DNA of 64,000 bases from Acidobacteriota bacterium (GCA_026393675.1 JAPKZQ010000042.1:1-64000); one strand, 5' to 3'; counted from the stretch's first letter, positions 30,151-49,516 are shown. The notes: generated by a model from the letters alone, not told the origin. Program-made: numbers and translations.

Positions 30151-30437
30151 GCGTTCCGGGCAAGGTGATTGAGGTGGCCGGCAATGTCGCCATCGTGGAC
30201 TTCTGGGGCGTGCGCCGGCAGGTGCAGCTCGACGTCGTTGACGAGCCTGTCGCGCCAGGTGACTACATCCTGAATCATGTCGGCTTCGCCATCCGGCGCA
30301 TTCCCGAATCGGAGATCGGCGAGACCCTCGCGCTCTACGAGCAACTGATCGCGCAGGCCGAGCAGGATGATCTGATGGCCGAAGACGTCCGCAACGAGAT
30401 CGCCGCGTCCAGAGATGACCCACGTGCCGGGAACTGA
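30141..30437 (+). CDS. hypC: Hydrogenase maturation chaperone HypC
   Basis: The product is 98 residues and begins with the invariant MCLGVPGKV, whose Cys2 binds the Fe(CN)2CO moiety during transfer. The beta-barrel core (NVAIVDFWGVRRQVQLDVVD, PGDYILNHVGFAIRRIPESE) is intact. A charged ~25-residue tail exceeds the usual length slightly. It overlaps hypF by 10 nt and hypD by 23 nt. HypC shuttles iron between HypD and the hydrogenase large subunit, which is not in this window. Confidence 0.96.
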   Translation: MCLGVPGKVIEVAGNVAIVDFWGVRRQVQLDVVDEPVAPGDYILNHVGFAIRRIPESEIGETLALYEQLIAQAEQDDLMAEDVRNEIAASRDDPRAGN

Positions 30438-31569
30438 TCGCGACCAGGCCCTCTCCGAACTGAAGTTCCGCGATCCGGTGCGCGCGCGCGCCCTGGTCGA
30501 GGCACTGGGGCGACGAACCGCGGAACTGGGCCGTGCGCCGGTGTCGGTGATGCACGTCTGCGGCAGCCACGAACAGGCCATCGCGAAATTCGGCCTGCGA
30601 TCGACATTCCCCCGCGGACTCAACGTCATCATGGGTCCGGGATGCCCCGTCTGCATTACCGACACGCCCGAAGTCGACGAAGGGGTGGTCCTCGCGCGCC
30701 AGGGTGTTCACATCGCGACCTACGGCGACATGGTCAGAGTCCCGGGCACGAGTCTGTCGCTCGCGGATGCCCAGGCCGAGGGCGCGAAGATTCACGTCAT
30801 CTACAGCGCCGGCCAGGCAGTCGAACTCGCGCGGTCGACCAGCGACCAGGTCGTGTTCTTCGCCACCGGGTTCGAAACGACGGCGGTGGCCACGGCCGCG
30901 GTTGTCCTCGGCGGGCTTCCGCCGAACCTGTCGATTCTGTCCGCCCACAAGTACATCCCCCCGGTCATGGAGATTGTGGCTGAAATGCCGGAGACCAAAG
31001 TTGAGGGGTTTCTGGCGGCGGGCCACGCGGCCACCATCACCGGCTCGGCCGTGTTCGAGCCGTTTGTCGCCCGGCACGGTCTCCCCGTCGTCATCGCCGG
31101 GTTCGAGCCCCTCGACATCCTCGCGGGCCTCGTCAAACTGGTGGAACTGATTCGCGATCGCACACCACAGGTCGTCAACATGTTTCCTCGCTGCGTCACT
31201 CGCGAGGGCAACCTCCGGGCGCAGGAGCAGCTGTGGAAGGTGTTTCGGTCGACGGGTGGCCGCTGGCGCGGCATCGCCCATGTGCCCAACGGGAATCTCC
31301 GTTTGCGCGACGAGTTCGCGTCGATCGATGCGCGGCGTCGATTCACGATCGATCTGGCGTCGCTGTGGGATTGTGCACCGCCCGCACTGGCGCAGTCGTG
31401 TATCTGCGGCAACATCATGGCGGGCCTGTCGTCGCCGACCGACTGCAAGCTGTTCGGCCAGGAATGCACACCCGAGAAGCCCGTCGGCGCGTGCATGGTG
31501 AGCAGCGAAGGCGCGTGCAAGATCTGGCACCAGTACGGCGGCCATCCTGATCTCGGAGGCGACGCGTGA
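30415..31569 (+). CDS. hypD: Hydrogenase expression/formation protein HypD
   Basis: The product is 384 residues. It has MHVCGSHEQAIAKFGLRS, GPGCPVCITDTPEVD (the CPVC redox pair), FFATGFETTAVATAAVVLGG and the C-terminal [4Fe-4S] cysteines in CICGNIMAGLSSPTDCKLFG and ECTPEKPVGACMVSSEGACK. HypD is the scaffold on which the Fe(CN)2CO group is assembled with HypC and HypE. The short N-terminal extension (about 20 residues) is within normal variation. The stop overlaps the hypE start by 4 nt. Confidence 0.96.
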   Translation: MTHVPGTDRDQALSELKFRDPVRARALVEALGRRTAELGRAPVSVMHVCGSHEQAIAKFGLRSTFPRGLNVIMGPGCPVCITDTPEVDEGVVLARQGVHIATYGDMVRVPGTSLSLADAQAEGAKIHVIYSAGQAVELARSTSDQVVFFATGFETTAVATAAVVLGGLPPNLSILSAHKYIPPVMEIVAEMPETKVEGFLAAGHAATITGSAVFEPFVARHGLPVVIAGFEPLDILAGLVKLVELIRDRTPQVVNMFPRCVTREGNLRAQEQLWKVFRSTGGRWRGIAHVPNGNLRLRDEFASIDARRRFTIDLASLWDCAPPALAQSCICGNIMAGLSSPTDCKLFGQECTPEKPVGACMVSSEGACKIWHQYGGHPDLGGDA

Positions 31570-32603
31570 TACGGCGTGGGTTTGTCGACGACAAGATCGG
31601 TCTCAAGTACGGCGCCGGCGGACGGGCCATGCGGGCCTTGATCGAGCGCGTGTGCCTCGCCGGCATCGGGCCCGCTCCCGTTGATGGCATCGGCCTGGCG
31701 GCCATGGACGATGGCGCGGCGCTGCGCATCGGCGACAGATGGCTCGTCATCACGACCGACTCGCACGTCGTGCACCCCATCGTATTTCCGGGAGGCGACA
31801 TCGGCCGGCTGGCGGTCTCGGGCACGGTCAACGACCTCGCCGTGATGGGCGCGACAGAACCGCTGGCGCTCACCTGCGCCATCATCATGGAAGAGGGGTT
31901 CGCGCGAACGGATCTCGAACGCATCTACGCCTCGATTCACGAGGCATGCCATGAGGCCGGCGCGACCATCGTGACCGGCGATACCAAGGTGATGGGACGT
32001 GGAGAGATTGACGGCCTCGTGCTGAACACGGCCGGTGTGGCCCTCTGCGATCGGGTGGTGCCCGACTCCGGTCTCAAACCCGGCGATTTGCTGATCCTGA
32101 CCGGCACGGTTGGCGATCACGGCATGGCGATCATGGCCGCGCGCCATAAGCTGGCGTTGGAAGGCGATCTTCGCTCCGATGTCGCGCCCATCAATGGACT
32201 GGTCCGTGCCGCACTCGAGGCGGGTGGTCTCGACGTCGTTGCCATGAAAGACCCGACCAGGGGCGGCGTGTCGAGCGCACTCCATGAGATGGCGGAAAAG
32301 AGCGGCGTCGGCATCATCGTCGAGGAGATGAAGGTGCCGGTGCGCAACCAGGTCCGGGCCGCATGCGATCTGCTCGGCATCGATCCGCTCGTCGTGGCCA
32401 ACGAGGGCAAGGCCCTGATTGGCGTGCGCGCGAGCGCTGCCGAAGACGTGCTGGCCGCGATCCGCCGGCACCCGCTTGGTTCCGACGCCGCCATCGTCGG
32501 CCGCTGCATCGAACAGCACGTCGGCGCGGTCATTCTCGACACCGGACTTGGCAGGCGCATGCTGGCCGAACCCGAGGGCGAACTGCTGCCGCGCATCTGC
32601 TGA
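31566..32603 (+). CDS. hypE: Hydrogenase expression/formation protein HypE
   Basis: The product is 345 residues of the PurM/AIRS-like fold. Diagnostic parts are GAGGRAMRALIER, AAMDDGAALRIGDRWLVITT, GDIGRLAVSGTVNDLAVMGA, KDPTRGGVSSALHEMAE and the C-terminal PRIC. Its terminal Cys accepts the carbamoyl group from HypF and is dehydrated to thiocyanate. It begins 4 nt inside hypD and completes the cluster. hypA and hypB, needed for nickel insertion, are not present in the window. Confidence 0.97.
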   Translation: MIRRGFVDDKIGLKYGAGGRAMRALIERVCLAGIGPAPVDGIGLAAMDDGAALRIGDRWLVITTDSHVVHPIVFPGGDIGRLAVSGTVNDLAVMGATEPLALTCAIIMEEGFARTDLERIYASIHEACHEAGATIVTGDTKVMGRGEIDGLVLNTAGVALCDRVVPDSGLKPGDLLILTGTVGDHGMAIMAARHKLALEGDLRSDVAPINGLVRAALEAGGLDVVAMKDPTRGGVSSALHEMAEKSGVGIIVEEMKVPVRNQVRAACDLLGIDPLVVANEGKALIGVRASAAEDVLAAIRRHPLGSDAAIVGRCIEQHVGAVILDTGLGRRMLAEPEGELLPRIC

Positions 32604-33578: not shown

Positions 33579-33594
33579 TGGCAATCGGCTTGCT
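33579..33594 (+). promoter_or_regulatory. Sigma-54 promoter of the nine-haem cytochrome operon
   Basis: TGGCAATCGGCTTGCT matches the -24/-12 consensus (TGGCAC-N5-TTGCT) with one mismatch in the -24 box and the exact spacing. It lies about 150 bp upstream of the cytochrome ATG. A 6-bp inverted repeat (TTGAGA and TCTCAA, 33561-33576) lies directly upstream. Confidence 0.7.
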
Positions 33595-33744
33595 GTAGAA
33601 TCAGCGCGGTGGAGGACTCTGCACGCCCGAGGTGTAGCGTGCTGGCGCCCCCGCGTCCCGCCACGGCTTGCAGGATCACACCCCGGCATGGTCCTGTCGT
33701 ACCCGCTTACGCCCGATTCATTGCCAGTTCATCCCGGATCGCTC

Positions 33745-34782
33745 ATGTTATCAACGTTCCTTCTTCTTCTGACCCTGTCGTCACAGCCTGGGCAGGTCGC
33801 GGCAGGCAAGACCGCCGATGTGGAGACCTGCCTGGCCTGTCACGGCGATCGGAGCATGGCTGTCACGCTCCCGAGCGGCGAAACCCGGTCGCTGTATGTC
33901 GATGTCGCCACATTCCGCGGTTCCGTACACGGGAACAAGATCGGCTGTGCGGACTGCCACCAGGACATGACGTCGGTGCCCCACGAGGCGCGCCCGTTCA
34001 AGACGCTGCGAGAATTCACCGTCGCGTACTATGAACAGTGCAAGCGGTGCCACTTCGACAACTACACGAAGACGCTCGACAGCGTGCACTACCAGGCTCT
34101 TGCGCGCGGCGATCGCACGGCCCCGCTTTGTGTCGACTGCCACGGCGCCCACGACGTCAGGTCGCCGCAGAAGCCCAAGGCCCTGGTGTCGCGCACCTGC
34201 GCGAAGTGCCACGAGGGCGTGTTCGCCGTTTACAACAAGAGCGTCCACGGACGCTTCCTCGAGAAGAGCGACGACGTACCGGGCTGCACCGACTGCCATC
34301 GCTCCCACGACGTCGCCGGTCCCCGTGATACCAACTGGCAGCGCCGCACGCCGGAACTCTGCCGCGGTTGCCACGAGAACAAGCGCCTGATGGAGAAATA
34401 CGGCTTGTCCACGGCCGTCGCGCAGACCTACGTCGCCGACTTCCACGGCATGACGGCATCGCTCCACGAAACCGATACAGGACGCGAGGTCAGCGTCGTC
34501 GCGCTTTGCACCGACTGCCACGGCGTGCACGACATCGCGAAGGTCAACGAACCGGGCTCGCGCGTGCTGCGTGCGAATCTGGTCAAGACCTGCGCCCGCT
34601 GCCACGCCGGCGCCACGGAGAACTTTCCTGGCGCCTGGATGTCGCACTACGAGCCCAGCTGGAAGAAGGCGCCGCTGGTCTACGGCGTGCAACTCTTCTA
34701 CAACATCCTGATTCCCTTCATGATCAGCGGCCTGGTCCTGCAGATGCTGCTGCACTTCTGGCGAGTGGTTGTCAACCGATGA
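33745..34782 (+). CDS. Nine-haem c-type cytochrome with a C-terminal membrane anchor
   Basis: The ATG at 33745 starts a signal peptide ([20 protein letters not shown]); in-frame codons before it are not signal-like. The 345-residue protein has nine CXXCH haem-binding motifs (CLACH, CADCH, CKRCH, CVDCH, CAKCH, CTDCH, CRGCH, CTDCH, CARCH). Several are in CxDCHGxHD contexts that recall NapC/NrfH or octahaem-type cytochromes. One transmembrane helix ([20 protein letters not shown]) sits at the C terminus. It should carry electrons on the periplasmic side of the membrane. Its stop overlaps the cytochrome b start by 4 nt. Confidence 0.9.
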
Positions 34783-35465
34783 GCACCTATCTCACACGCT
34801 TCACGCGGCGTCAGCGCACCGAGCACGTGCTGGTCATGTCGCTCTTCATCGTCTTGTCGGTCACGGGACTTCCCCAGAAGTACTTCGACGCGGCATGGGC
34901 GCGCTGGTTCATCAACCTGATGGGCGGCATCGACCACGTCCGGTGGTTCCACCGGGCCGCCGGCCTGTCGTTCGCGGCGTTGACGGCCTGGCACGTGATG
35001 TTCGCCATCGGGTCGGTCGCGGCCGGGCGGTCGCCACTCTCAATCGTGCCCAACCGAAAGGATTTTGACGATGCGATCCAGATGATGCGGTATTACCTGG
35101 GGCGCATCGATCAGCCGGCGCAGTTCGATCGATTCGACTATCGCCAGAAGTTCGAGTATTGGGGGCTCGTCCTCGGCGCTGTGGTCGTCATCTCCACCGG
35201 CCTCATCCTCTATTTCCCGATCCTGTTCACCCGTTTCTTCCCGGGAGAACTGATTCCCGCCGCCAAGGTGGCCCACAGCAACGAAGGCCTGATGGCGTTT
35301 CTGGTGGTCATTCTCTGGCACATCTATAACGCGCATCTCAACCCGGATGTGTTTCCGTTCGACAAGACCATCTTCACGGGCACAATCAGCCTGGAGCGCA
35401 TGCATCACGAACACCCGCTGGAACTGGCGCGGTTGAAGCAGGTCCAGGACATCGAGGAGCCATAG
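34779..35465 (+). CDS. Cytochrome b561/formate dehydrogenase gamma-like membrane subunit
   Basis: The ATG at 34779 overlaps the preceding stop (ATGA). The product is 228 residues with about four transmembrane helices. Histidines suited to b-haem binding lie in [31 protein letters not shown] and [19 protein letters not shown]. This pattern fits the diheme cytochrome b subunits that pass electrons between the quinone pool and periplasmic cytochromes. With the nine-haem partner it probably forms a quinol-cytochrome oxidoreductase, either direction. The substrate of the pair is not evident. Confidence 0.85.
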
Positions 35466-35469
35466 CCTG

Positions 35470-36447
35470 TTGCTGGACACCGCGGGCCTGGTCATCCTGC
35501 ACGGTTGTATCGCCGCCCTCCTGGTCGAGGCCGTGCTTCGGCTCTGGCGAGTGCAGGATCCGGGCGAGCGTCTGGCCCTGCGGTGGCTGGCCCTGGTTGC
35601 GCCCATCGTCCTCCCGGTTGCCTTTCACGTCCTCGCCCCTGGTCGTTCCACAGAGTGGTTTGGCTCGGCACGGGCCCTCTTTGCGGGCGAGCACTGGAAT
35701 CAGCTGGCGCTTGGCCATACCGGCGCGGCCTCTCTTGCGACGGTGGCGCTGTTGATCGTCGGTGGTCTGCTCTACCTGCGCGATGCCCTTCCCTTTCTCG
35801 ACGACCGGGTCCGCGGCCTCGGCGAACGCGACACGATCTCAGGACATCCGGAGCTCGCGCGGGTGCAGACCCTGCTCGACGAGCTTCAGCAGGCCGTCGG
35901 CGCACCGGCCATGGCGGTTGTCCTCCTCGATCGTCAGACGCCGGTCCTCCTGTGCTCCGGAGTCGATCGTCCCACACTGGTGATCTCGACTGGCACGCTC
36001 AGCCGCCTGGGCGACGACGAATTGCGCGCCGCTCTCGCCCACGAACTGGCGCACGCGGCGCGCCGGGATCCCCTGATGGGCTGGCTGCTCATGGTGGTTC
36101 GCACCGTGGCGTCGTTCAGCCCTGCCGCGCAGATTGTCGCGCGGCAGGTTGTGCAGGAACTGGAATACCGCGCCGACGTCGCGGTCGCGCGGCTTGGGTA
36201 CTCGGCGGCGCTCAGCCGGGCCATTGCGGCGCTGGCTGACACGCCCGAGAGCGACACCGATCTCGTGCCGCCCCGTTCACCGCTCGGCTTCCCCCGGGGG
36301 CTGCTTGCCCGCGCGGAACGCGTCGCGGTGGGACATCGGTGCGAGCGCGTGTTTGCCCAACCAGAACCCATCCGAACCGGCCTCGGCGCGTTTCGCCTCG
36401 GCCTGGCGGCCGCCGGCATGACGGCCCTGCTCTTTTTCGTCGTATAG
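35470..36447 (+). CDS. M48/M56-type membrane zinc metallopeptidase
   Basis: The TTG at 35470, 4 bp after the cytochrome b stop, is the best start in frame; no ATG lies near. The 325-residue protein has N-terminal hydrophobic segments and the zinc motif RAALAHELAHAARRDPLMGW (HExxH), with a downstream EYRADVAVA that supplies the third ligand Glu. This is the BlaR1/HtpX-type peptidase arrangement. A final transmembrane helix ends the chain. Its location after the cytochromes suggests a role in envelope stress or quality control, which is inference. Confidence 0.8.
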   Translation: MLDTAGLVILHGCIAALLVEAVLRLWRVQDPGERLALRWLALVAPIVLPVAFHVLAPGRSTEWFGSARALFAGEHWNQLALGHTGAASLATVALLIVGGLLYLRDALPFLDDRVRGLGERDTISGHPELARVQTLLDELQQAVGAPAMAVVLLDRQTPVLLCSGVDRPTLVISTGTLSRLGDDELRAALAHELAHAARRDPLMGWLLMVVRTVASFSPAAQIVARQVVQELEYRADVAVARLGYSAALSRAIAALADTPESDTDLVPPRSPLGFPRGLLARAERVAVGHRCERVFAQPEPIRTGLGAFRLGLAAAGMTALLFFVV

Positions 36448-39780: not shown

Positions 39781-39796
39781 TGGCAGTTGAATTGCT
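39781..39796 (+). promoter_or_regulatory. Sigma-54 promoter upstream of the NtrB-like kinase operon
   Basis: TGGCAGTTGAATTGCT fits the -24/-12 consensus with correct spacing and one mismatch in the -24 box. It lies about 175 bp upstream of the kinase ATG, within the 290-bp gap after the response regulator. Confidence 0.7.
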
Positions 39797-39969: not shown

Positions 39970-41571
39970 ATGCCACTGTCATCGGTCCGTTGGTGGAACC
40001 GGCTGAGCGTCCAGCTGCCGCTCGTGATCGCGGTTGGCACGCTGGCGATTGTGGGCACGGCGGCCGCCTTGTTCCTGGGCGCGCAGGAGCAGTACCTGCA
40101 CGCCGAGGTGGTTCGCGGCGCCGAGCTGTTCAGCGAGACCATCAGGAGCAGCACGTATCACGACATGCTGCTCGACCGGCGCGAGAACGCGTACCTCGTG
40201 ATGGACACGATTGGGCGTCAGTCCGGGATCGATCATGTCCGGTTCTTCAACAAGGAAGGGCGCGTCACGTTCTCAACGGACCGGATGGAAGTCGGCGCCA
40301 TGGTCGACAAACGCGCCGAGGCCTGCTACCAGTGCCATGCGGCGGACCGGCCGCTGGAGCGCCTCACGACCGGGACTCGATGGCGGATCTACGAAGCCCG
40401 CGGACATAACGTGCTGGGCATGGTCACACCGATCTACAACGAACCGGGCTGTTCGAGCACCGCGTGCCACGTCCACCCGGCGAGCAAGCGTGTGCTGGGC
40501 GTCATCGATATCGGCATTTCGCTCAGGGAGATCGACGAGAATCTGATGCGCATCCGGCGCAACACCCTCCTGATGGCGGGCGTGGCTGTCGTGCTGCTGG
40601 GAGCCTTCGTCGGCCTCTACGCCCAGCGGCTCGTGGTCAAGCCCGTGGTCGAACTGGCGATCGCCACCCGCCAGATTGGCGCCGGCGATCTGACCCGCAA
40701 GATCCCGGTGTCGCGAACCGGCGAGCTGGGCATGCTCGGACAGTCCTTCAACGACATGGTCGGGGCCTTGAGCAAGGCGCGGGCGGAACGCCTGCAACTG
40801 CTCGAAACGCTCGAGCACCAGGTGGAGGAACGCACCGCGGATTTGAAGCAGGCGCAAACCCAGCTCGTGCAATCCGAGAAGCTCTCGTCGCTCGGCAGGC
40901 TTGCGGCGTCCATCGCTCATGAGATCAACAACCCGCTGGCGGGCATCCTGACCTACGCCAAGCTGCTCGTCCGGATGCTCGAGGGTGGAGACCTCGACGA
41001 TCAGACGCGCTCGACGTGCGTCCGTCACCTCAAACTGGTCCAGCGCGAGACGGAGCGGTGTACGGCGATTGTCCGCAACCTTCTCGAATTCGCCAGGCAG
41101 CGGCCTCTCTCTTTGAAAGAGGTCGATACTTCGGCAGTTCTTGATGAGGCGGTGTCGCTGGTCGGCCATCAGGCCAAGCTGCATGGCATCGCCATCAACC
41201 GGCACGTCGACGCACTGCCGCCCATCCAGGCCGATTTCGGGCAACTGCGGCAGGCGTTTGTCAACATCATGCTCAATGCCTGTGAAGCGATGAAGGACGG
41301 CGGCACCCTGAGCATCTCGTGCCGGCCGACCCCGGGGGCCGCCTGTGTGGAACTGGTGTTCACGGATACCGGCGCGGGAATCCCACCCGACAGGCTTGCG
41401 AAGATCTTCGATCCGTTTTTTACCACCAAGGAGATGGGCACGGGGCTCGGCCTCTCCGTGGTGTACGGCATTGTCGAACACCACCACGGCACGATCGGCA
41501 TTCAGAGCGAGGTGGGCAAAGGGACGACCTTCACGATCGTACTCCCGGCCGCCCGGAAGACGGATGCCTGA
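39970..41571 (+). CDS. NtrB-like sensor histidine kinase with two c-type haem motifs
   Basis: The product is 533 residues. Transmembrane helices at about 14-36 and 197-217 enclose a periplasmic sensor domain. It contains CYQCH (119-123) and the longer CSSTACH (161-167), the CXXCH and CX4CH haem-attachment forms used in multihaem cytochromes. HAMP, a coiled coil, a HisKA domain (LGRLAASIAHEINNPLAGIL) and an HATPase (NIMLNACEAM, DTGAGIPPDRL, GTGLGLSVVYGIVEHHHGTI) follow, like NtrB/ZraS kinases. It likely phosphorylates the NtrC-type activator two genes downstream in the same operon. Confidence 0.9.
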   Translation: MPLSSVRWWNRLSVQLPLVIAVGTLAIVGTAAALFLGAQEQYLHAEVVRGAELFSETIRSSTYHDMLLDRRENAYLVMDTIGRQSGIDHVRFFNKEGRVTFSTDRMEVGAMVDKRAEACYQCHAADRPLERLTTGTRWRIYEARGHNVLGMVTPIYNEPGCSSTACHVHPASKRVLGVIDIGISLREIDENLMRIRRNTLLMAGVAVVLLGAFVGLYAQRLVVKPVVELAIATRQIGAGDLTRKIPVSRTGELGMLGQSFNDMVGALSKARAERLQLLETLEHQVEERTADLKQAQTQLVQSEKLSSLGRLAASIAHEINNPLAGILTYAKLLVRMLEGGDLDDQTRSTCVRHLKLVQRETERCTAIVRNLLEFARQRPLSLKEVDTSAVLDEAVSLVGHQAKLHGIAINRHVDALPPIQADFGQLRQAFVNIMLNACEAMKDGGTLSISCRPTPGAACVELVFTDTGAGIPPDRLAKIFDPFFTTKEMGTGLGLSVVYGIVEHHHGTIGIQSEVGKGTTFTIVLPAARKTDA

Positions 41572-41587
41572 TGGGTGCTGACACACC

Positions 41588-42142
41588 ATGACCGCGGACG
41601 TGCACATCTGGTGGCTCGGCGCCGATGCGCCAGACGAGCGCCTGCTCGACACGGTGCGGCACGCCATCCAGGCCGTGTTTGGCGTGACCGTCCGGGTCGA
41701 TCGTCGACCCGATCGTCCCACCCACGTTTTCGATCCGGGGCGCGGCCAGCACTCCTCGACGCAGATGCTCAAGTGGCTGGTGGGCCAATCGCCCGCCGGC
41801 GGTCGCACGCTGGCCGTCACCGACGTGGACCTATTCATTCCCGTGCTGACCTTCGTGTACGGCGAGGCCCAACTGGGCGGCGATGCCGCCGTCGTGTCGA
41901 CCGCACGGCTCGCGGTCGCGGCCGGACCTGATCCGGACCGGGCCCTGTTTGACAGCCGCATCATCAAGGAGTGCGTCCACGAACTCGGCCACACCTTCGG
42001 CCTGATTCACTGCGACTCGAGAGCCTGCGTCATGGCCCGGTCGGTGAACCTGATTGAGGTCGACGCCAAGCGCACGTCGCTCTGCGGGGACTGCGATGCC
42101 CGCTACCGGGCGCTACACCAGAAGGACAAACATCATGAGTAA
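41588..42142 (+). CDS. amzA: Archaemetzincin-family zinc metalloprotease
   Basis: This 184-residue protein carries the extended zinc signature VHELGHTFGLIHCDSRACVM (HExxHxxGxxHC) and later cysteines CGDC. Together these match archaemetzincin, whose first zinc site is catalytic and whose four cysteines bind a second zinc. Family proteins are cytoplasmic aminopeptidase-like metzincins. It sits between a kinase and its regulator, overlapping the regulator start by 8 nt, an unusual context for a protease. Confidence 0.9.
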   Translation: MTADVHIWWLGADAPDERLLDTVRHAIQAVFGVTVRVDRRPDRPTHVFDPGRGQHSSTQMLKWLVGQSPAGGRTLAVTDVDLFIPVLTFVYGEAQLGGDAAVVSTARLAVAAGPDPDRALFDSRIIKECVHELGHTFGLIHCDSRACVMARSVNLIEVDAKRTSLCGDCDARYRALHQKDKHHE

Positions 42143-43511
42143 GGAACGCACCCGGGTCTTGGTCGTTGACGACGAGGAAATCGTACGGGAATCGCTGTCG
42201 GGCTGGCTGGCCAAGGACGGCTATACGCTCGACACGGCGCCAGACGGGCCGTCGGCCATTGACAAACTCAGGCAGGAGCGCTGGTCCATTCTGCTGGTCG
42301 ACTTGAAGATGCCCGGGATGGATGGCCTGCACGTCCTCGAAACCGCCAAGACGATCCAACCCGACGTCGCCGTCGTCATCATGACGGCGTACGCCACGGT
42401 CGAGACGGCCGTCGAAGCGATGAAGATGGGTGCCTACGACTACCTCGTCAAGCCGTTCGATCCCGAGGAACTCAGTTTGATGATGGTGAAGATTGTCGCC
42501 CAGCAGCAACTGGTGCGTGAGAACGTTCTGCTGCGCAAGGTGCTGAAGCGCGACTATCACTTCCGCGACATGATCAGCAAGAGCCCGGTGATGCAGCGGC
42601 TGTTCGACCTGGCCCGGAGCGCGGCGCGCAGCCAGTCCACCGTGCTCATCCTCGGCGAGAGCGGCACAGGCAAGGAACTGCTGGCGCGGGCCATCCATGC
42701 CGAAAGCCCGCGGCAGTCGGCGCCGTTTGTTGCGGTGTCATGCGCCGCACTCACCGAGACGCTCCTCGAGTCCGAGCTGTTCGGGCACGAGAAGGGATCG
42801 TTCACCGGCGCGGTCAACCGGCGAAAGGGCAAATTCGAATCGGCGCACGGCGGCACCCTCTTCCTCGATGAGATCGGCGACATCTCCCCGAAACTCCAAC
42901 TCGATCTGTTGCGTGTGCTCGAGGAACGCAAGTTCTTCCGCGTCGGCGGGTCGGAACCCGTGGAGGTCGACGTGCGGATCATCGCGGCGACCAATCGGGA
43001 TCTCCGGAAGGCCTCTGAGACCGGCCAGTTCCGCGACGACCTGTACTACCGGCTGAACGTCATTCCGATGACCTTGCCCCCGCTGCGCGAGCGGCTCGAG
43101 GACGTCCCGCTGCTGGTCGAGCATTTCCTGGAACACCTGAATCTCGAGATGAGCCACCGCGTCGAGGAGGTCAGCGCGGACGCGTTGTCGGCCCTGATGC
43201 GCTACGACTGGCCCGGCAACGTCCGCGAATTGCGTAATGTGCTGGAACGCGGCATGGTGGTGGCGAAGGGCTCGCTCATCATGCCCGAGGATCTCGGCCT
43301 CGACGCCGGCACGCCGCGGCAGGGCCCCATCGATGTCACGCTCTCACTTGATGAGGTCGAGCACCGCCATATCGCGGCGGTCCTGCATCATGGGGGTGGC
43401 AATGTCACCCAGGCGGCCCGGACGCTCGGCATCGATCGGGTCACGCTCTACAACAAGATCAAGAAATACGGATTGCGCCGCGTCGAGGAGCACGACGGGG
43501 AGGCGAAGTAG
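42135..43511 (+). CDS. NtrC-type sigma-54-dependent response regulator
   Basis: The ATG at 42135 is preferred; upstream codons overlap amzA in another frame. The 458-residue protein has a receiver domain (RVLVVDDEEIVRESLSGWLA, Asp in LLVDLKMPGMDG, Lys in YLVKPFD). Its AAA+ domain carries Walker A GESGTGKE, the sigma-54 contact loop as GSFTGA, and Walker B GGTLFLDEIGDI. A Fis-type C-terminal HTH follows (GGNVTQAARTLGIDRVTLYN). It should activate -24/-12 promoters such as those at 33579, 39781 and 45153. The convergent kinase gene begins its stop codon at the very next base. Confidence 0.95.
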   Translation: MSKERTRVLVVDDEEIVRESLSGWLAKDGYTLDTAPDGPSAIDKLRQERWSILLVDLKMPGMDGLHVLETAKTIQPDVAVVIMTAYATVETAVEAMKMGAYDYLVKPFDPEELSLMMVKIVAQQQLVRENVLLRKVLKRDYHFRDMISKSPVMQRLFDLARSAARSQSTVLILGESGTGKELLARAIHAESPRQSAPFVAVSCAALTETLLESELFGHEKGSFTGAVNRRKGKFESAHGGTLFLDEIGDISPKLQLDLLRVLEERKFFRVGGSEPVEVDVRIIAATNRDLRKASETGQFRDDLYYRLNVIPMTLPPLRERLEDVPLLVEHFLEHLNLEMSHRVEEVSADALSALMRYDWPGNVRELRNVLERGMVVAKGSLIMPEDLGLDAGTPRQGPIDVTLSLDEVEHRHIAAVLHHGGGNVTQAARTLGIDRVTLYNKIKKYGLRRVEEHDGEAK

Positions 43512-44690
43512 CTAGTTGCCTGCCACCTTCAGATCGAACGAGAACCGGGTACCCTTCCCCGGTTCGCTCTCCACGGCAATCGTGGACTGGTGGCCCTCGA
43601 TAATCATCTTCACGAGCGCCAGGCCGAGCCCCGTGCCGCCCTGGCGGCGCGTGGTCGAGCCGTCAAGTTGGTGGAACGCCTCAAACAGCTCCGGCATCTT
43701 CTCGGCCGCGATGCCCTGACCGGTATCGGCCACCCACACCCGAACGCTGTCGCCGACGACGGCGGCACCCATCGTCACGCTCCCGCCCTGAGGGGTGAAT
43801 TTGACGGCGTTATCGATCAACTGGTTCAGCACCCAGCGGATCTTCTCGCCATCAGCCACGACCTGAGGCAGCGCGGCCGCCACGGATACTAGCAGTTGGA
43901 CGCCGCGGCGCTTCGCCTTCTCGGCCGCCGCGCCCGCGCATTCCGCAAGAATATCGCCGGCTGCGGTCGCCGCCTGATGCAGCACCATCTCTCCGCGGGC
44001 GCCCGTGGCGAACTGGATCAGATCGGCCACCAGTCGCTCCAGTTCCGCGACGCCGCGGCCCATCGTCTGCACCGCCTGTACCTGGTCATCAGTGAGCGGA
44101 CCGAGATCGCCAGCGGCCAGCAGCAGATTGAAGCCTTTGATCTTCGTCAGCGGCGTGCGCAGCTCGTGGGAGATGTTGTTGATGAAGTTCCCTTTGAGCC
44201 GATCCAGTTCCGTGAGGCGCTGATACGCGGCCTGCAGTTCCTGCGTGCGCTCGGCCACCCGCTGCTCGAGTTGGGCATTCACCTGCCGGAGGGCGTTCTG
44301 GAGATCCTGCACCTGCTCGACGCTGGCCAACTCCAGCTGCTCGCGCGTCATCAATCGCATCTCGAGCAGGACCTGGCCAAGCGTCTCACGCGTGCCACGC
44401 GCCGACATCTCCCGCTGGCGTTGCAGCGCGGCGTCAAGATGGGCTGACGTGATGTAGCCCTTCTTCATCAGGAACTCGCCGAACCGCGACAGCATGGCGT
44501 CGCCGAGGAACGGCACGCCTGGCTCGGCGGGAATCACACTCAGCGCGAGACGCTCCATCAGCACGGCAGCCAACGCCAGGTCGACCCCACACTGCGGACA
44601 CGTCGCCTCCCTCGCCGGCACGTCGGCCCGACACCGCGGACACGGATACATCAATCGATCAGCATCGCCTGGTCCCGGCATGGCTGGCAT
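43512..44690 (-). CDS. Soluble histidine kinase with zinc-ribbon and MshEN-like N terminus
   Basis: The start is uncertain among ATGs at 44690, 44681 and 44651; all give a protein of ~380-392 residues without transmembrane helices. The N terminus is a double CxxC zinc ribbon (YPCPRCRADVPAREATCPQCG). A segment resembling the MshE/GSPII_E N-terminal fold follows (FGEFLMKKGYITSAHLDAAL, TLGQVLLEMRLMTREQLELA), then a coiled coil. HisKA (NFINNISHELRTPLTKIKGF) and HATPase (NQLIDNAVKFTPQGG, GTGLGLALVKMIIEGH) end it. MshEN folds can bind c-di-GMP, so a second-messenger input is possible. Its response regulator is not adjacent on the same strand. Confidence 0.85.
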   Translation of the reverse strand: MPAMPGPGDADRLMYPCPRCRADVPAREATCPQCGVDLALAAVLMERLALSVIPAEPGVPFLGDAMLSRFGEFLMKKGYITSAHLDAALQRQREMSARGTRETLGQVLLEMRLMTREQLELASVEQVQDLQNALRQVNAQLEQRVAERTQELQAAYQRLTELDRLKGNFINNISHELRTPLTKIKGFNLLLAAGDLGPLTDDQVQAVQTMGRGVAELERLVADLIQFATGARGEMVLHQAATAAGDILAECAGAAAEKAKRRGVQLLVSVAAALPQVVADGEKIRWVLNQLIDNAVKFTPQGGSVTMGAAVVGDSVRVWVADTGQGIAAEKMPELFEAFHQLDGSTTRRQGGTGLGLALVKMIIEGHQSTIAVESEPGKGTRFSFDLKVAGN

Positions 44691-45152: not shown

Positions 45153-45168
45153 TGGCGAGGAACTTGCT
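45153..45168 (+). promoter_or_regulatory. Sigma-54 promoter of the ferredoxin/NrfD/cytochrome operon
   Basis: TGGCGAGGAACTTGCT fits the -24/-12 pattern with exact spacing; GG and GC, the most conserved bases, are present. It lies 34 bp before the first gene. An inverted repeat TTCGC-N9-GCGAA at 45111-45129 lies upstream and could be an activator site. Confidence 0.7.
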
Positions 45169-45201
45169 CTCTTTCCGGGCGGAGGAAAGGAAGGCGCAAG
45201 A

Positions 45202-45426
45202 ATGGCCTGCCCATACTTGAAGGAAGTGGTGATGCTCTACTGCCAGGCCTATCCGGTCAAGAAGCTCGTGCCTCTCGACCGCATCGCGTCGGCGGACCCA
45301 TGCCTGGGCCTCGAGTACGAGGCCTGCCCCCTGTTCAAGGACGTGGTGACCCGCATCCGGGCAAGTACGCAACGCGCGACAGCCTCTTTGCCACCTGACT
45401 CCACTCGCCGGGAGGTTTTCCGATGA
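45202..45426 (+). CDS. Small cysteine-containing protein at the head of the electron-transfer operon
   Basis: The product is 74 residues, beginning MACPYLKEVVMLYCQAYPVK, then KLVPLDRIASADPCLGLEYE and ACPLFKDVV. Four cysteines (3, 14, 34, 42) could bind a metal or cluster. A GGAGGAAAGG-like ribosome binding site lies about 13 nt upstream. The stop overlaps the next ATG (ATGA). I recognise no named family; position as first gene suggests an accessory or regulatory subunit of the complex. Confidence 0.65.
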   Translation: MACPYLKEVVMLYCQAYPVKKLVPLDRIASADPCLGLEYEACPLFKDVVTRIRASTQRATASLPPDSTRREVFR

Positions 45427-45506
45427 TGTTCATTCCCTTACTCGCACTCGTCGGCCTCGTGCTGGTCGGGTGCTCAACACTCATCGCGGCACGCAGCCGC
45501 TCGTGA
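45423..45506 (+). CDS. 27-residue single-helix membrane peptide, translationally coupled
   Basis: The ATG at 45423 overlaps the preceding TGA. The 27-residue product is MMFIPLLALVGLVLVGCSTL followed by IAARSRS. It is one hydrophobic helix with a basic C-terminal end and a Cys in a lipobox-like LVGC. An uninterrupted frame, start overlap and hydrophobic composition favour a real small subunit, as is common in NrfD- and oxidase-type complexes. It is followed after 29 bp by the ferredoxin gene. Confidence 0.5.
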   Translation: MMFIPLLALVGLVLVGCSTLIAARSRS

Positions 45507-45535
45507 CACGACGATTCACGTAGAGGAATCGCACC

Positions 45536-46453
45536 ATGAAGCTCAATCGACGATTGTTTCTGAAAGTGGCCGGGGCAGCAGGGGCTATCGCCGCCGTCCC
45601 GGCAGCCACCGCCGGAGCTACGACCCTCGAGGAGCAGGCAGCCGTCAATAGCGCCCGACGCGGCGTACTGGTCGACACGACCAAGTGTGTCGGGTGCCGG
45701 GCCTGCGAAGCGGCGTGCACGGAAACCAACAACCAGCCCGAACCGGTGCGGCTCGATGACCCGGCGGTCTTCAAGACCGTGAGGACGACCGACACGCGGC
45801 ACTACACCGTTGTGAACGCGGCCAATACAGGAGCGAGCGCGGTGCCGGCGCGGTTCATCAAGCGCCAGTGCATGCACTGCCTCGAACCGGCGTGCGCATC
45901 AGCGTGCCTCGTGCGCGCGCTGGACAAGACGCCGACCGGACCGGTGGTGTACCACAAGGACCGATGCCTGGGCTGCCGGTACTGCATGGTGGCCTGCCCG
46001 TTTGGCGTGCCCAAGTACGAGTACGACTCTCCCACGCCGTTCGTCCAGAAGTGCACGTTCTGCGCCGACCGCCAGTCGCGGGGCGAGGCGCCAGCCTGCA
46101 CGTCGGTCTGCCCGAGCGGTGCGCTCACCTTCGGCATGCGTGACGACCTGATCGAAACCGCGCGCGAACGGCTCTACGCCAAGGGCAGTAAGTACGTGCG
46201 CTACATTTACGGCCAGCGCGAGGTCGGCGGCACGAGCTGGATGTACATCACGGACATTCCATTCGAGAAGCTCGGCCTGCCAACCGACCTCGGCACCTAC
46301 GCGTACTCGTCGTTGACACAAGCCTCGCTGGCGGCAGTGCCGTTTGTCCTGACCCTGTGGCCGCCGCTCCTGATGGGGATGTACACCTTCAGCAAGCGAC
46401 GCGAGCAGGTGGCCGCACAGGAAGCCGCCGGGAAGGAGACCAGCCATGAGTAG
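45536..46453 (+). CDS. Tat-exported four-cluster ferredoxin-type electron-transfer subunit (HybA/HmcB-like)
   Basis: The product is 305 residues. The N terminus KLNRRLFLKVAGAAGAIAAV is a twin-arginine signal. Four cysteine groups bind [4Fe-4S] clusters: CVGCRACEAAC, CMHCLEPACASAC, CLGCRYCMVAC, and CTFC with CTSVC. A C-terminal transmembrane helix (AAVPFVLTLWPPLLMGMYTF) anchors it on the periplasmic side, as in HybA. It passes electrons to or from the NrfD/HybB partner, whose gene overlaps by 8 nt. Confidence 0.93.
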   Translation: MKLNRRLFLKVAGAAGAIAAVPAATAGATTLEEQAAVNSARRGVLVDTTKCVGCRACEAACTETNNQPEPVRLDDPAVFKTVRTTDTRHYTVVNAANTGASAVPARFIKRQCMHCLEPACASACLVRALDKTPTGPVVYHKDRCLGCRYCMVACPFGVPKYEYDSPTPFVQKCTFCADRQSRGEAPACTSVCPSGALTFGMRDDLIETARERLYAKGSKYVRYIYGQREVGGTSWMYITDIPFEKLGLPTDLGTYAYSSLTQASLAAVPFVLTLWPPLLMGMYTFSKRREQVAAQEAAGKETSHE

Positions 46454-47669
46454 CACAACGGCACGCGCCCTGCCCTCCGGTAGCTGGGTCACCGACAAGA
46501 TCTTCCTCGGCCTTCCGTTTGCCGAGTACCTCAAGAGCCTCGCGACCCCTGGCAATTTCGTCTCGGGCCTCATCATGGCGATCGGCATCCCCCTGATCGT
46601 CTACCGCTTCGTGTACGGTCTCGGGGCGGCGACCAATCTGTCGCAGACCAATCCGTGGGGAATCTGGATCGGCTTCGACATGCTGGCGGGTGTCGCGCTC
46701 GCCGCCGGCGGCTATACGGTGGCCACGGCGGTGTACATTTTCGGGTTGAAGGAATACCACCCGATCGTGCGACCCGCGATTCTGACAGGGTTCCTGGGAT
46801 ACCTGTTCGCGGTCCTCGGCCTCTGCGCGGACCTTGGGCGCCCGTGGAACCTGCCCGTGCCGATCTTCATCTCGTGGGGCGGGCCGTCAGTCATGTTCGA
46901 GATCGCCTGGTGCGTCGTGCTCTACCTCACGGTGCTCGGGCTGGAATTTCTGCCGCCCGTGTTCGAGTGGCTGGGATGGAAGAAAGCCCTCGTGTTGGCG
47001 ACAAAGGCCACCATCGGCCTGACGGTCGTCGGCGTCATGTTGTCGACGCTGCACCAGTCGTCGCTCGGCGGTCTCTTTCTGATGGCCCCGACCAAGCTGC
47101 ACCCGCTCTGGTACTCGCCCTTCATTCCGGCGTACTTCTTCATCTCGAGTATCGCGGCGGGCCTGAGCATGGTCATCGTCGAGAGTGGCCTCTCGCATCG
47201 GGCCTTCCAGAGCCGCATCGACCACCACGTGAACCTGGACAAACTGGTCGTCGGCCTCGCCCGGGGAGCCTCGATTGTCCTGTTCGCATACTTCTTCCTG
47301 AAGGTCCAGGGGGTCGCCGACAGCGGCCGCTGGTCGTTGCTCACGACCGGGTACGGCTACTGGTTCCTGGTCGAGGTTTTGGGATTCATCCTCCTACCGT
47401 CGCTGGTGTTCGCCTATGCCGCGCGCCGCGCGAAGGTGACCCTGATTCGGTGGACCGCCGCGTGGACCGTGCTTGGCATCATCGTCAACCGTCTCAATGT
47501 GTCGGTGATTGCGCTCAACTGGAACTCTCCGGATCGGTACGTTCCGAGCTGGATGGAAGTGATGGTATCGCTCACGCTCGTGACCCTTGGCATCTCGGCC
47601 TTCCGGTGGATCGTCAACCGGATGCCAGTGCTCAACGAGCATGAACTGTCAGGGATCCGCGAGTCGTAG
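46446..47669 (+). CDS. hybB: NrfD/HybB-family membrane subunit
   Basis: The product is 407 residues with about nine to ten transmembrane helices. Characteristic stretches are NPWGIWIGFDMLAGVALAAG, PILTGFLGYLFAVLGL-type helix 3 (AILTGFLGYLFAVLGLCADL), STLHQSSLGGLFLMAPTKLH and NRLNVSVIALNW. HybB proteins exchange electrons between periplasmic iron-sulfur or haem proteins and quinone, and may pump protons. The match to HybB rather than short NrfD is from length and the HQSSLG motif. It overlaps the ferredoxin gene by 8 nt. Confidence 0.92.
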   Translation: MSSTTARALPSGSWVTDKIFLGLPFAEYLKSLATPGNFVSGLIMAIGIPLIVYRFVYGLGAATNLSQTNPWGIWIGFDMLAGVALAAGGYTVATAVYIFGLKEYHPIVRPAILTGFLGYLFAVLGLCADLGRPWNLPVPIFISWGGPSVMFEIAWCVVLYLTVLGLEFLPPVFEWLGWKKALVLATKATIGLTVVGVMLSTLHQSSLGGLFLMAPTKLHPLWYSPFIPAYFFISSIAAGLSMVIVESGLSHRAFQSRIDHHVNLDKLVVGLARGASIVLFAYFFLKVQGVADSGRWSLLTTGYGYWFLVEVLGFILLPSLVFAYAARRAKVTLIRWTAAWTVLGIIVNRLNVSVIALNWNSPDRYVPSWMEVMVSLTLVTLGISAFRWIVNRMPVLNEHELSGIRES

Positions 47670-47696
47670 CCGCGGACGCGCGAAGAGGAGATACGC

Positions 47697-48422
47697 ATGA
47701 TTCCGCATGACATCCTGACGCTCTACTCGGCGAAGATGATCGAGTACGGCATCGCGATTTTGTTCCTGCTGTTGTTTATGCCCTTCTGGAAGTACGTGCA
47801 GGGGCCGAGCGCAGCCGCCGTCCTGGCACACGCCAGGGTCCGCCAGCCGGCGACGACGGGGGCGGACTGGTTCCCGATCCCGCTGGATCGCCTCTTCCAC
47901 CGCGGCCACGCGTGGGCCCGTCCGGAATCCGACGGCCTGGTCACTGTGGGTCTCGATGGATTCGCCGCGAAGCTGGTAGGGCCACTCGCGGCTGTCGCGC
48001 TGCCCCAAGTGGGTGCCGCCGTCGGTCAGGGCGAAAAGGCCTGGCGACTGATCGCCGACGATGGCCGCGCGGTCGAGATGCTGTCGCCGCTTGACGGGAC
48101 CATTGCCGAGATCAACACCGATCTGGCCAGGGCCCCGGAAGCCGCGCAAGTTGACCCCTACGGCCGCGGATGGTTGTTTCGCGTCCGGCCGCAGAGGCTC
48201 CGCGCCAACAGCACCAGCCTTCTGTCGGGAACGACGGCCAGACGCTGGATGGACGAGGCCGTCGCCGGATTGCAGCGCACGCTGTCGCCGGAACTGGGCG
48301 CCCTGGCCCAGGACGGCGGCGTGCCGGTGACCGGCATGGCGCGCATCATCGACGCGGAACACTGGGACAACCTCGCGCGGACGCATTTCCTCACCGACGA
48401 CAAGGAGGACGCCAATGCGTAA
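47697..48422 (+). CDS. Membrane-anchored GcvH-like protein without the lipoyl lysine (first)
   Basis: The product is 241 residues. A transmembrane helix near residues 15-33 (IEYGIAILFLLLFMPFWKYV) precedes a GcvH/lipoyl-like fold: LFHRGHAWARPESDGLVTVG, VALPQVGAAVGQGEKAWRLI, SPLDGTIAEINTDL and DPYGRGWLFRVRP. In true H proteins the ESVKA loop carries the lipoylated Lys; here the matching stretch is ADDGRAVEMLSP with no Lys. A helical C-terminal region of ~70 residues follows. It should be a structural or docking subunit of the complex rather than a lipoate carrier. It overlaps the triheme cytochrome gene by 8 nt. Confidence 0.8.
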   Translation: MIPHDILTLYSAKMIEYGIAILFLLLFMPFWKYVQGPSAAAVLAHARVRQPATTGADWFPIPLDRLFHRGHAWARPESDGLVTVGLDGFAAKLVGPLAAVALPQVGAAVGQGEKAWRLIADDGRAVEMLSPLDGTIAEINTDLARAPEAAQVDPYGRGWLFRVRPQRLRANSTSLLSGTTARRWMDEAVAGLQRTLSPELGALAQDGGVPVTGMARIIDAEHWDNLARTHFLTDDKEDANA

Positions 48423-48771
48423 CCTCCGCTTCGGGACGGTACTGGTCGCCGTGACCCTCGTCGGCCTACTCGCCACTGCCGCGGGAATCGCGCAGGGCCG
48501 ACTGCCCAATCTGCCCCAGCCATTCACCTTTGCGCAGACGGGAGACAGCCCGGGAAAAGTCACGTTCAATCACACGTCACACGTGGATGAGAACGCGCCC
48601 GGATGCACCGCGTGTCATCCCAGGCTGTTCAAGATTCTGAAAGGCGGCACCGCCGCCGACGGCAAGACGATCACGCACGACGCCATGAAGCAGAGCCGGG
48701 CCTGCGGCGCGTGCCACGACGGCAAGAAGTCGTTCGGATTCGATGACTGCACGACGTGTCATCGCAGTTGA
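48415..48771 (+). CDS. Triheme cytochrome c7/c3-type
   Basis: The product is 118 residues. A signal peptide (FGTVLVAVTLVGLLATAAGI) precedes three CXXCH motifs (CTACH, CGACH, CTTCH). The class III pattern KVTFNHTSH, with His as a sixth ligand, recalls c7/c3 cytochromes. It is probably a soluble or loosely anchored periplasmic electron carrier for the adjacent NrfD complex. The ATG overlaps the end of the first GcvH-like gene. Confidence 0.9.
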   Translation: MRNLRFGTVLVAVTLVGLLATAAGIAQGRLPNLPQPFTFAQTGDSPGKVTFNHTSHVDENAPGCTACHPRLFKILKGGTAADGKTITHDAMKQSRACGACHDGKKSFGFDDCTTCHRS

Positions 48772-48808
48772 GAGTCACCAACGGGTCAGTGAGAAAGACG
48801 AGGAGATC

Positions 48809-49516
48809 ATGGACACGCTACTGAGCGTCCTGGAATCAGCGGCCATACTGGTGGCGGGACTCACCGTCAGGGTGGGCCTCCTGCTGCTCGTGCTCGCCGT
48901 CCTCTCGGTGCCGGTGTTCCTGTTTCTGACGGGCATGAAGGGCGTCGACGCCATCCGGCGGCGCCTGGTAGGCGTGATGCGAGTCGGCCGCCTGTTCTGG
49001 AGCGACCAGGTGTACTACGCACCTGGTCATACCTGGATTCGCCCGATGTCGCGTCAGCGGGCGCTGGTCGGCATCGACGACCTCGCGCAGCGCCTGTTCG
49101 CCGCACCGATGGGATTGAAACTGCCGCAGCCGGGCACCGAGGTCCGCGAGGGACAGCCCATCGCCGAGGTCCGGACGGCGGGCCGCCGCGCCGCGATCAT
49201 GTCGCCGATTTCGGGCGTGGTCACGCGCGTCAATGAAGCGGTGCGCGAGGACGCTTCCCTGGTTCACCGCGATCCGTATTCGCGGGGCTGGCTGTTTGCC
49301 GTGATCCCGTCCGATACGGCGTTTCAGAAACTACCGGCGGGCCGGACCGCGAGGGCCTGGCTGTCTGAGGAGGAACATCGGCTGTCGCGGTTCTACGAGA
49401 CCCAGTTGGGCATCGCCGCCGCCGACGGCGGCGACTTCGTCGAGCATCCGCCGGCGCTGCTCACCGACGAGCAGTGGCAGGCGCTCACTCACGAGTTCCT
49501 GGCCAATCCGTCCTAG
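48809..49516 (+). CDS. Membrane-anchored GcvH-like protein without the lipoyl lysine (second)
   Basis: The ATG at 48809 follows AGGAG; upstream codons overlap the cytochrome. The 235-residue product has an N-terminal transmembrane helix (LLLLVLAVLSVPVFLFLTGM). A GcvH-like core follows: YYAPGHTWIRPMSRQRALVG, LKLPQPGTEVREGQPIAEVR, SPISGVVTRVNEAV and DPYSRGWLFAVIP. The lipoyl loop reads VRTAGRRAAIMSP, again without Lys and similar to the first copy (both have GR before the SP turn). The C terminus matches the first copy in layout, so the two are paralogues flanking the triheme gene. Confidence 0.8.
   Translation: MDTLLSVLESAAILVAGLTVRVGLLLLVLAVLSVPVFLFLTGMKGVDAIRRRLVGVMRVGRLFWSDQVYYAPGHTWIRPMSRQRALVGIDDLAQRLFAAPMGLKLPQPGTEVREGQPIAEVRTAGRRAAIMSPISGVVTRVNEAVREDASLVHRDPYSRGWLFAVIPSDTAFQKLPAGRTARAWLSEEEHRLSRFYETQLGIAAADGGDFVEHPPALLTDEQWQALTHEFLANPS

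Follow-up and report, generated by a model that had tools for sequence, protein, structure and literature searches.

A 64,000-nucleotide stretch of an Acidobacteriota genome (JAPKZQ010000042.1, hereafter the window) contains a seven-gene operon (45202-49516, + strand) that joins the iron-sulfur (Fe-S) and membrane subunits of Hmc-type electron-transfer complexes to two GcvH-like H-proteins lacking the lipoyl lysine. The explanation we favour, to which we give about an even chance, is a sigma54-induced, Hmc-like quinone/cytochrome complex in which the unlipoylated H-fold subunits would serve in the cytoplasm for docking or regulation. Subunit families, sigma54-like sites, gene order and an H-protein fold minus its lysine can be read from the sequence; the electron path, the subunit contacts and the role of the H domains we infer. 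A sequence-only reading of the window had described the same operon, and all seven open reading frames lie where it placed them, on the + strand and in the families it named, most neighbours overlapping or almost touching.

The operon is preceded by a sigma54 -24/-12-like promoter (TGGCGAGGAACTTGCT, 45153-45168, + strand), 49 bp from the first gene; position 45153, from which the sequence-only reading had started, is the first base of this site. Of 55 related operons, 28 have a similar site close to their first gene, where 0.04 per operon would be expected. Having a -24/-12 site before its first gene and a sigma54 activator nearby, the operon is, judged by its sequence, sigma54-promoted. The first gene (45202-45426) encodes a 74-residue Cys-rich protein with four conserved Cys and no signal peptide, predicted to be a cytoplasmic metal/redox module. 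Its stop is overlapped by the start of a gene for a 27-residue hydrophobic peptide with a single transmembrane (TM) segment (MMFIPLLALVGLVLVGCSTLIAARSRS, 45423-45506), equivalents of which keep their position in loci L035-L037, L039 and L040. There follow an HmcB/HybA-like subunit exported by the twin-arginine (Tat) pathway, with 16 Cys, four [4Fe-4S] clusters and a C-terminal TM segment (45536-46453); an HmcC/HybB-like membrane subunit of the NrfD family with a predicted quinone site (46446-47669; PF03916, E 5e-18); the TM-anchored lysine-less H-protein H1 (47697-48422; GCV_H, E 4e-20); a periplasmic trihaem cytochrome c7 (48415-48771; three CXXCH; TIGR04257, E 3e-18); and a second TM-anchored lysine-less H-protein, H2 (48809-49516; GCV_H, E 2e-18), all on the + strand. 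In L051 HmcC carries the c7 as a C-terminal fusion, which supports the assignment of c7 as a putative partner of HmcC.

Both H-proteins score above the curated Pfam GCV_H cut-off and fall short of the curated GcvH equivalog TIGR00527 (67 and 62 bits; cut-off 115.85). An AlphaFold model of H1, built from an alignment of 53 homologues, reaches a mean pLDDT of 88; its confident Foldseek matches are all H-proteins, and it superposes on the E. coli H-protein with a root-mean-square deviation of 1.1-1.4 Å and a target TM-score of 0.93-0.95. The model thus points to a true H-protein fold for H1; H2 is assigned to this fold from Pfam and the family alignment, and the related Cys-rich/H fusion of L086 likewise models as an H-protein. 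The lipoyl fold claimed by the sequence-only reading is accordingly borne out, as is the loss of the modified residue: Gly or Asp replaces the Lys of ESVKA in H1 and H2, whereas an ordinary GcvH encoded on another contig of the same genome (G000:C43:24276) keeps ESVKA (ESVKAVSELYSP). Across 201 homologues the lipoyl position is mostly G (74), D (31), S (30), A (19) or E (11), with K in 7, and the next residue is most often R (85), K (43) or Q (16). A lysine displaced to another site, which would have spoken against a lipoate-free role, was sought in the alignment of 53 H1 proteins, where no lysine is conserved. Other residues are strongly conserved, namely H68, G70, H71, W73 and D206-G207-G208. 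Beyond the missing lysine, H1 and H2 differ from GcvH, with which they share fold and Pfam family, by an N-terminal TM segment, a C-terminal extension bearing the DGG motif and membership of a redox operon. In the plasmid collection, the matches read as ordinary GcvH.

The nearest curated families of the Fe-S and NrfD subunits are HmcB (NF045715; E 1.9e-105, 352 bits, cut-off 420) and HmcC (NF045714; E 4e-153, 510 bits, cut-off 550), neither cut-off being reached. An NrfD membrane subunit with a four-cluster Fe-S partner places the pair in the NrfD/PsrC family. Desulfovibrio Hmc (HmcA-F) also shares with our system a small TM peptide and multihaem c and cytochrome b partners linked to the locus, but the hexadecahaem HmcA and HmcF are missing from the operon, which has instead two H-proteins, a Cys-rich protein and a trihaem c7, with a nonahaem cytochrome 11 kb away. 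The HybA/HybB pair of NiFe hydrogenase 2 has an identical architecture; its match is weaker than that of Hmc, and hydrogenase genes are missing from the operon. Strict identity with either Hmc or Hyb was rejected because of the profile scores. A hydrogenase membrane anchor was likewise rejected, for this genome: its best large-subunit match has only E 9.6e-15, against E<1e-150 for full-length matches elsewhere in the phylum. The window does hold a stretch (27841-32603) with HypF (27841-30150) followed by frames reading like HypC, HypD and HypE; despite these Hyp-like genes, no full-length group-1-like NiFe hydrogenase large subunit was found in the genome. HmcB relatives devoid of a Tat signal were seen in L045-L047, L051, L052, L161 and L162. 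In L053 (977-7638) the genes for a molybdopterin oxidoreductase-like protein and for HmcB/HmcC-like and H proteins follow one another, and an H fused to two copies of the Cys-rich domain is encoded nearby.

A scan of one genome per species, covering 84,980 species, yielded 80 loci, many of them from metagenome-assembled genomes. They span Acidobacteria, Nitrospinae, Rokubacteria, Anaeromyxobacter/Myxococcales, other Deltaproteobacteria, Planctomycetota and Gemmatimonadota, as well as KSB1, Ignavibacteria/Chlorobiota, Caldithrix, Krumholzibacteriia and Nitrospirae, so that the predicted unit recurs in about ten phyla. HmcC is present in 64 of the 80 loci and is followed within two genes by H in 55 of these 64, which supports a conserved association of H with HmcB/HmcC. 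The same 64 loci have a sigma54 regulator in 46 cases, a kinase in 45 and an archaemetzincin (AMZ) in 41; among 24 loci with long flanks, the figures are 22, 21 and 20. The complete order Cys-rich/TM peptide/HmcB/HmcC/H1/c7/H2 occurs in L034, L036, L037 and L039, and the order minus c7 in L035 and L040. This conservation of whole gene order rules out a chance association. The H family divides into several subtypes, of which a locus has two or three, and is fused elsewhere to a receiver domain (REC) or to the Cys-rich protein. In the family tree, window H1 clusters with the H genes directly 3' of HmcC (60 of 66 such genes fall in the H1 clade), and H2 with Cys-rich/H fusions, to which it appears related (SH-like support 0.88, moderate). 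In such fusions, found in the Deltaproteobacteria-type L084, L086, L091, L094 and L097, the Cys-rich protein is joined to the N-terminus of the H domain; since H2 groups with them, the Cys-rich protein and H2 appear to correspond to the two halves of a single protein that has been split.

A putative regulatory module lies upstream of the operon. Behind a sigma54-like site (39781-39796, +) come genes for a membrane histidine kinase (39970-41571, +), an archaemetzincin (41588-42142, +) and an NtrC-type, sigma54-activating response regulator (42135-43511, +). The kinase has CYQCH and CSSTACH in its periplasmic sensor domain, where CXXCH recurs in 46 of 54 related kinases, and is predicted to sense haem. 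The protease, with an intact HELGHTFGLIHC....C.M motif (PF07998, E 1.7e-20), qualifies as an archaemetzincin by the motif HEXXHXXGXXHC(X4)CXM and by a score above the curated NF033823 cut-off; the catalytic motif is intact in 50 of 55 related AMZ. It thereby differs from its family relative CarG of Myxococcus, a regulator without the catalytic Glu (PMC3427221). Among about 61 genomes with H genes, picked by hand from tables and including REC-H carriers (ten found on sampling GcvH-like matches, plus G153 and G211), 38 have AMZ (Fisher test ignoring phylogeny, 3e-15), and all 38 of the non-REC H genomes do. In the phylum of L056, AMZ is present in 48 of 51 H-positive genomes, and of the 65 AMZ genes in these H-positive genomes, 50 have an H gene no more than 10 kb away. 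A soluble histidine kinase with an N-terminal zinc ribbon lies between regulator and operon (43512-44651, -); its membership of the module is uncertain.

Further upstream, a third sigma54-like site (33579-33594, +) precedes the gene for a nonahaem c-type cytochrome with nine haems and a C-terminal TM segment (33688-34782, +), followed directly by a cytochrome b resembling the formate dehydrogenase gamma subunit (34779-35465, +). The nonahaem cytochrome is 54-60% identical to the nine-haem cytochrome just after H2 in L061, L062, L076, L079 and L082 (Myxococcota/Deltaproteobacteria); its pairing with cytochrome b is repeated in these five loci and in L056, and as a pair the two are 54-62% identical to those directly 3' of H2 in several Myxococcota/Deltaproteobacteria loci. 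The nonahaem cytochrome is thus a probable member of the regulon and partner of the complex. Directly 3' of the cytochrome b gene lies a gene for a BlaR1-like M56 peptidase (35470-36447).

HmcB, by its Tat signal, and c7 are exported subunits; for the H domains the prediction is the other side of the membrane, facing the cytoplasm. By charge rules, the topology of the H-proteins follows from an excess of positive charge after the TM segment in 111 of 120 anchors (positive-inside rule). Independent support comes from TM-REC-H proteins, in which the H domain stands behind a receiver domain (e.g. L116), and from Cys-rich/H fusions, which have no TM segment.

Variants of the system were also seen. 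Soluble proteins with tandem Cys4 motifs and an H domain occur in Desulfobacterota-type genomes with the same kinase/regulator/AMZ set, and sigma54 sites precede 10 of 16 of these H genes. At L137, L139 and L141 (phylum of L056), tandem Cys4-H and/or the kinase/sigma54 regulator/AMZ set adjoin HdrA or HdrABC; HmcBC is absent from the stretches fetched there. One Acidobacteriota family and a few others have a compact four-gene operon, HmcB-HmcC-haem kinase-TM-REC-H (L161, L162, L163, L164 and L165), from which AMZ and a DNA-binding regulator are missing; since its receiver has no DNA-binding domain, the complex may be controlled directly by phosphorylation. TM-anchored H genes with no HmcBC nearby were seen in L041-L044, L125 and L128-L133, mostly in Terriglobia/Acidobacteriales-type genomes, and genes of the 2-oxoacid:ferredoxin oxidoreductase type lie near TM-anchored H in L042, L043 and L045.

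Taken as a model, the favoured reading describes an inner-membrane complex of the Hmc/NrfD class, induced through the sigma54 regulator by the haem-sensing kinase, which would pass electrons between periplasmic haem proteins (the trihaem c7 and probably the nonahaem cytochrome and cytochrome b) and the quinone pool by way of HmcB and HmcC. H1, H2 and the Cys-rich protein would sit on the cytoplasmic face, the H domains docking or regulating without lipoate: they may keep the Cys4 module near HmcC and link the complex to the kinase, which in the compact form would probably act directly, phosphorylating the receiver fused to H. Several points weigh against this model. Its evidence is computational, the AlphaFold models being of single chains and the H-HmcC contact a proposed one; the HmcB relatives devoid of a Tat signal imply that the sidedness of the Fe-S subunit may vary among variants; and, given the Desulfobacterota-type Cys4-H proteins and the Terriglobia orphans with no HmcBC nearby, H is not an obligatory subunit everywhere. 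The proposal of the sequence-only reading, that the lipoyl fold was recruited as a structural or docking part of a respiratory complex, is plausible but incomplete: it missed the predicted cytoplasmic side of the H domains, their several subtypes and their fusions, and also the sigma54/haem kinase/AMZ module, which is found with soluble Cys4-H proteins and no close HmcBC as well. Because of these same features, cytoplasmic H domains, fusions and module, a regulatory role deserves serious consideration beside a purely structural one.

The H domains might then be mainly signal-transduction adaptors, with HmcB/HmcC serving as a redox or quinone sensor and H plus Cys4 relaying to the kinase, the sigma54 regulator and the archaemetzincin. 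The REC-H fusions that adjoin kinase and HmcBC and have no DNA-binding domain, the H genes that accompany the same kinase/regulator/AMZ set away from HmcBC in Desulfobacterota-type genomes, and the co-occurrence and closeness of AMZ and H all fit such a role; on the other hand, the operon and the soluble H genes themselves carry sigma54 sites and so would seem to lie at the output end of the circuit, not at its input, and trihaem and nonahaem cytochromes and a cytochrome b suit electron transport better than sensing, which leaves this, the main alternative, possible but somewhat doubtful. It is unlikely that the H-proteins are assembly or maturation factors, for instance for Fe-S or haem insertion with the archaemetzincin as processing protease: the module has a dedicated protease and the Cys4 motifs could carry metal, but two or three copies per locus, one of them nearly always TM-anchored and directly 3' of HmcC, suggest stoichiometric subunits. 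Still less probable are swinging carriers modified at a shifted residue, by lipoate or another group, or through a cofactor at the Cys4 site. These would resemble LbpA of the Hdr-like sulfur-oxidation system, a GcvH-like protein also recruited to a redox complex and often present in two copies, and the basic residue at +1 in 128 of 201 homologues and the H genes that neighbour HdrABC in some Desulfobacterota-type genomes could be so read. However, Arg, which cannot be lipoylated, is commoner there than Lys, no Lys is conserved anywhere in the H1 alignment, and all LbpA proteins retain a strictly conserved lipoyl Lys (PMC6067878), which the H-proteins described here, mostly membrane-anchored, do not have. 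That they are decayed, roleless GcvH paralogues carried by chance is suggested by nothing but the lost catalytic lysine; other residues, and the position of the genes, are strongly conserved from phylum to phylum, which makes this reading negligible, and we count it as already refuted.

We also put forward, tentatively, a general system of redox control. Unlipoylated H domains in the cytoplasm, gated by phosphorylation or by Cys4, would regulate the various redox enzymes to which they attach (HmcBC complexes and perhaps HdrABC), and archaemetzincin would serve the system as its dedicated protease. If true, this would amount to a direct, kinase-controlled respiratory complex of an undescribed kind.

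As the sequence-only reading had supposed, no description of a complex with this gene set was found in the open-access literature, including the D. vulgaris sigma54 regulome (PMC4641369) and a review of NrfD proteins (PMC8076601); apparently, a complex widespread in bacteria has gone undescribed. Nor was an archaemetzincin tied to a respiratory operon found in that literature. The physiological roles of bacterial archaemetzincins are reported to be largely unknown (PMC4681839), and the system provides a strong genomic context for them: in Acidobacteriota and the phylum of L056, almost all sampled genomes that encode a non-receiver H also encode AMZ, usually nearby. As cultured Anaeromyxobacter strains have the gene set, its role is directly testable. 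More broadly, a cofactor-carrier fold appears to have lost its cofactor and, in about ten phyla, many of them uncultured, to have been taken up as a conserved component of a respiratory-type complex.

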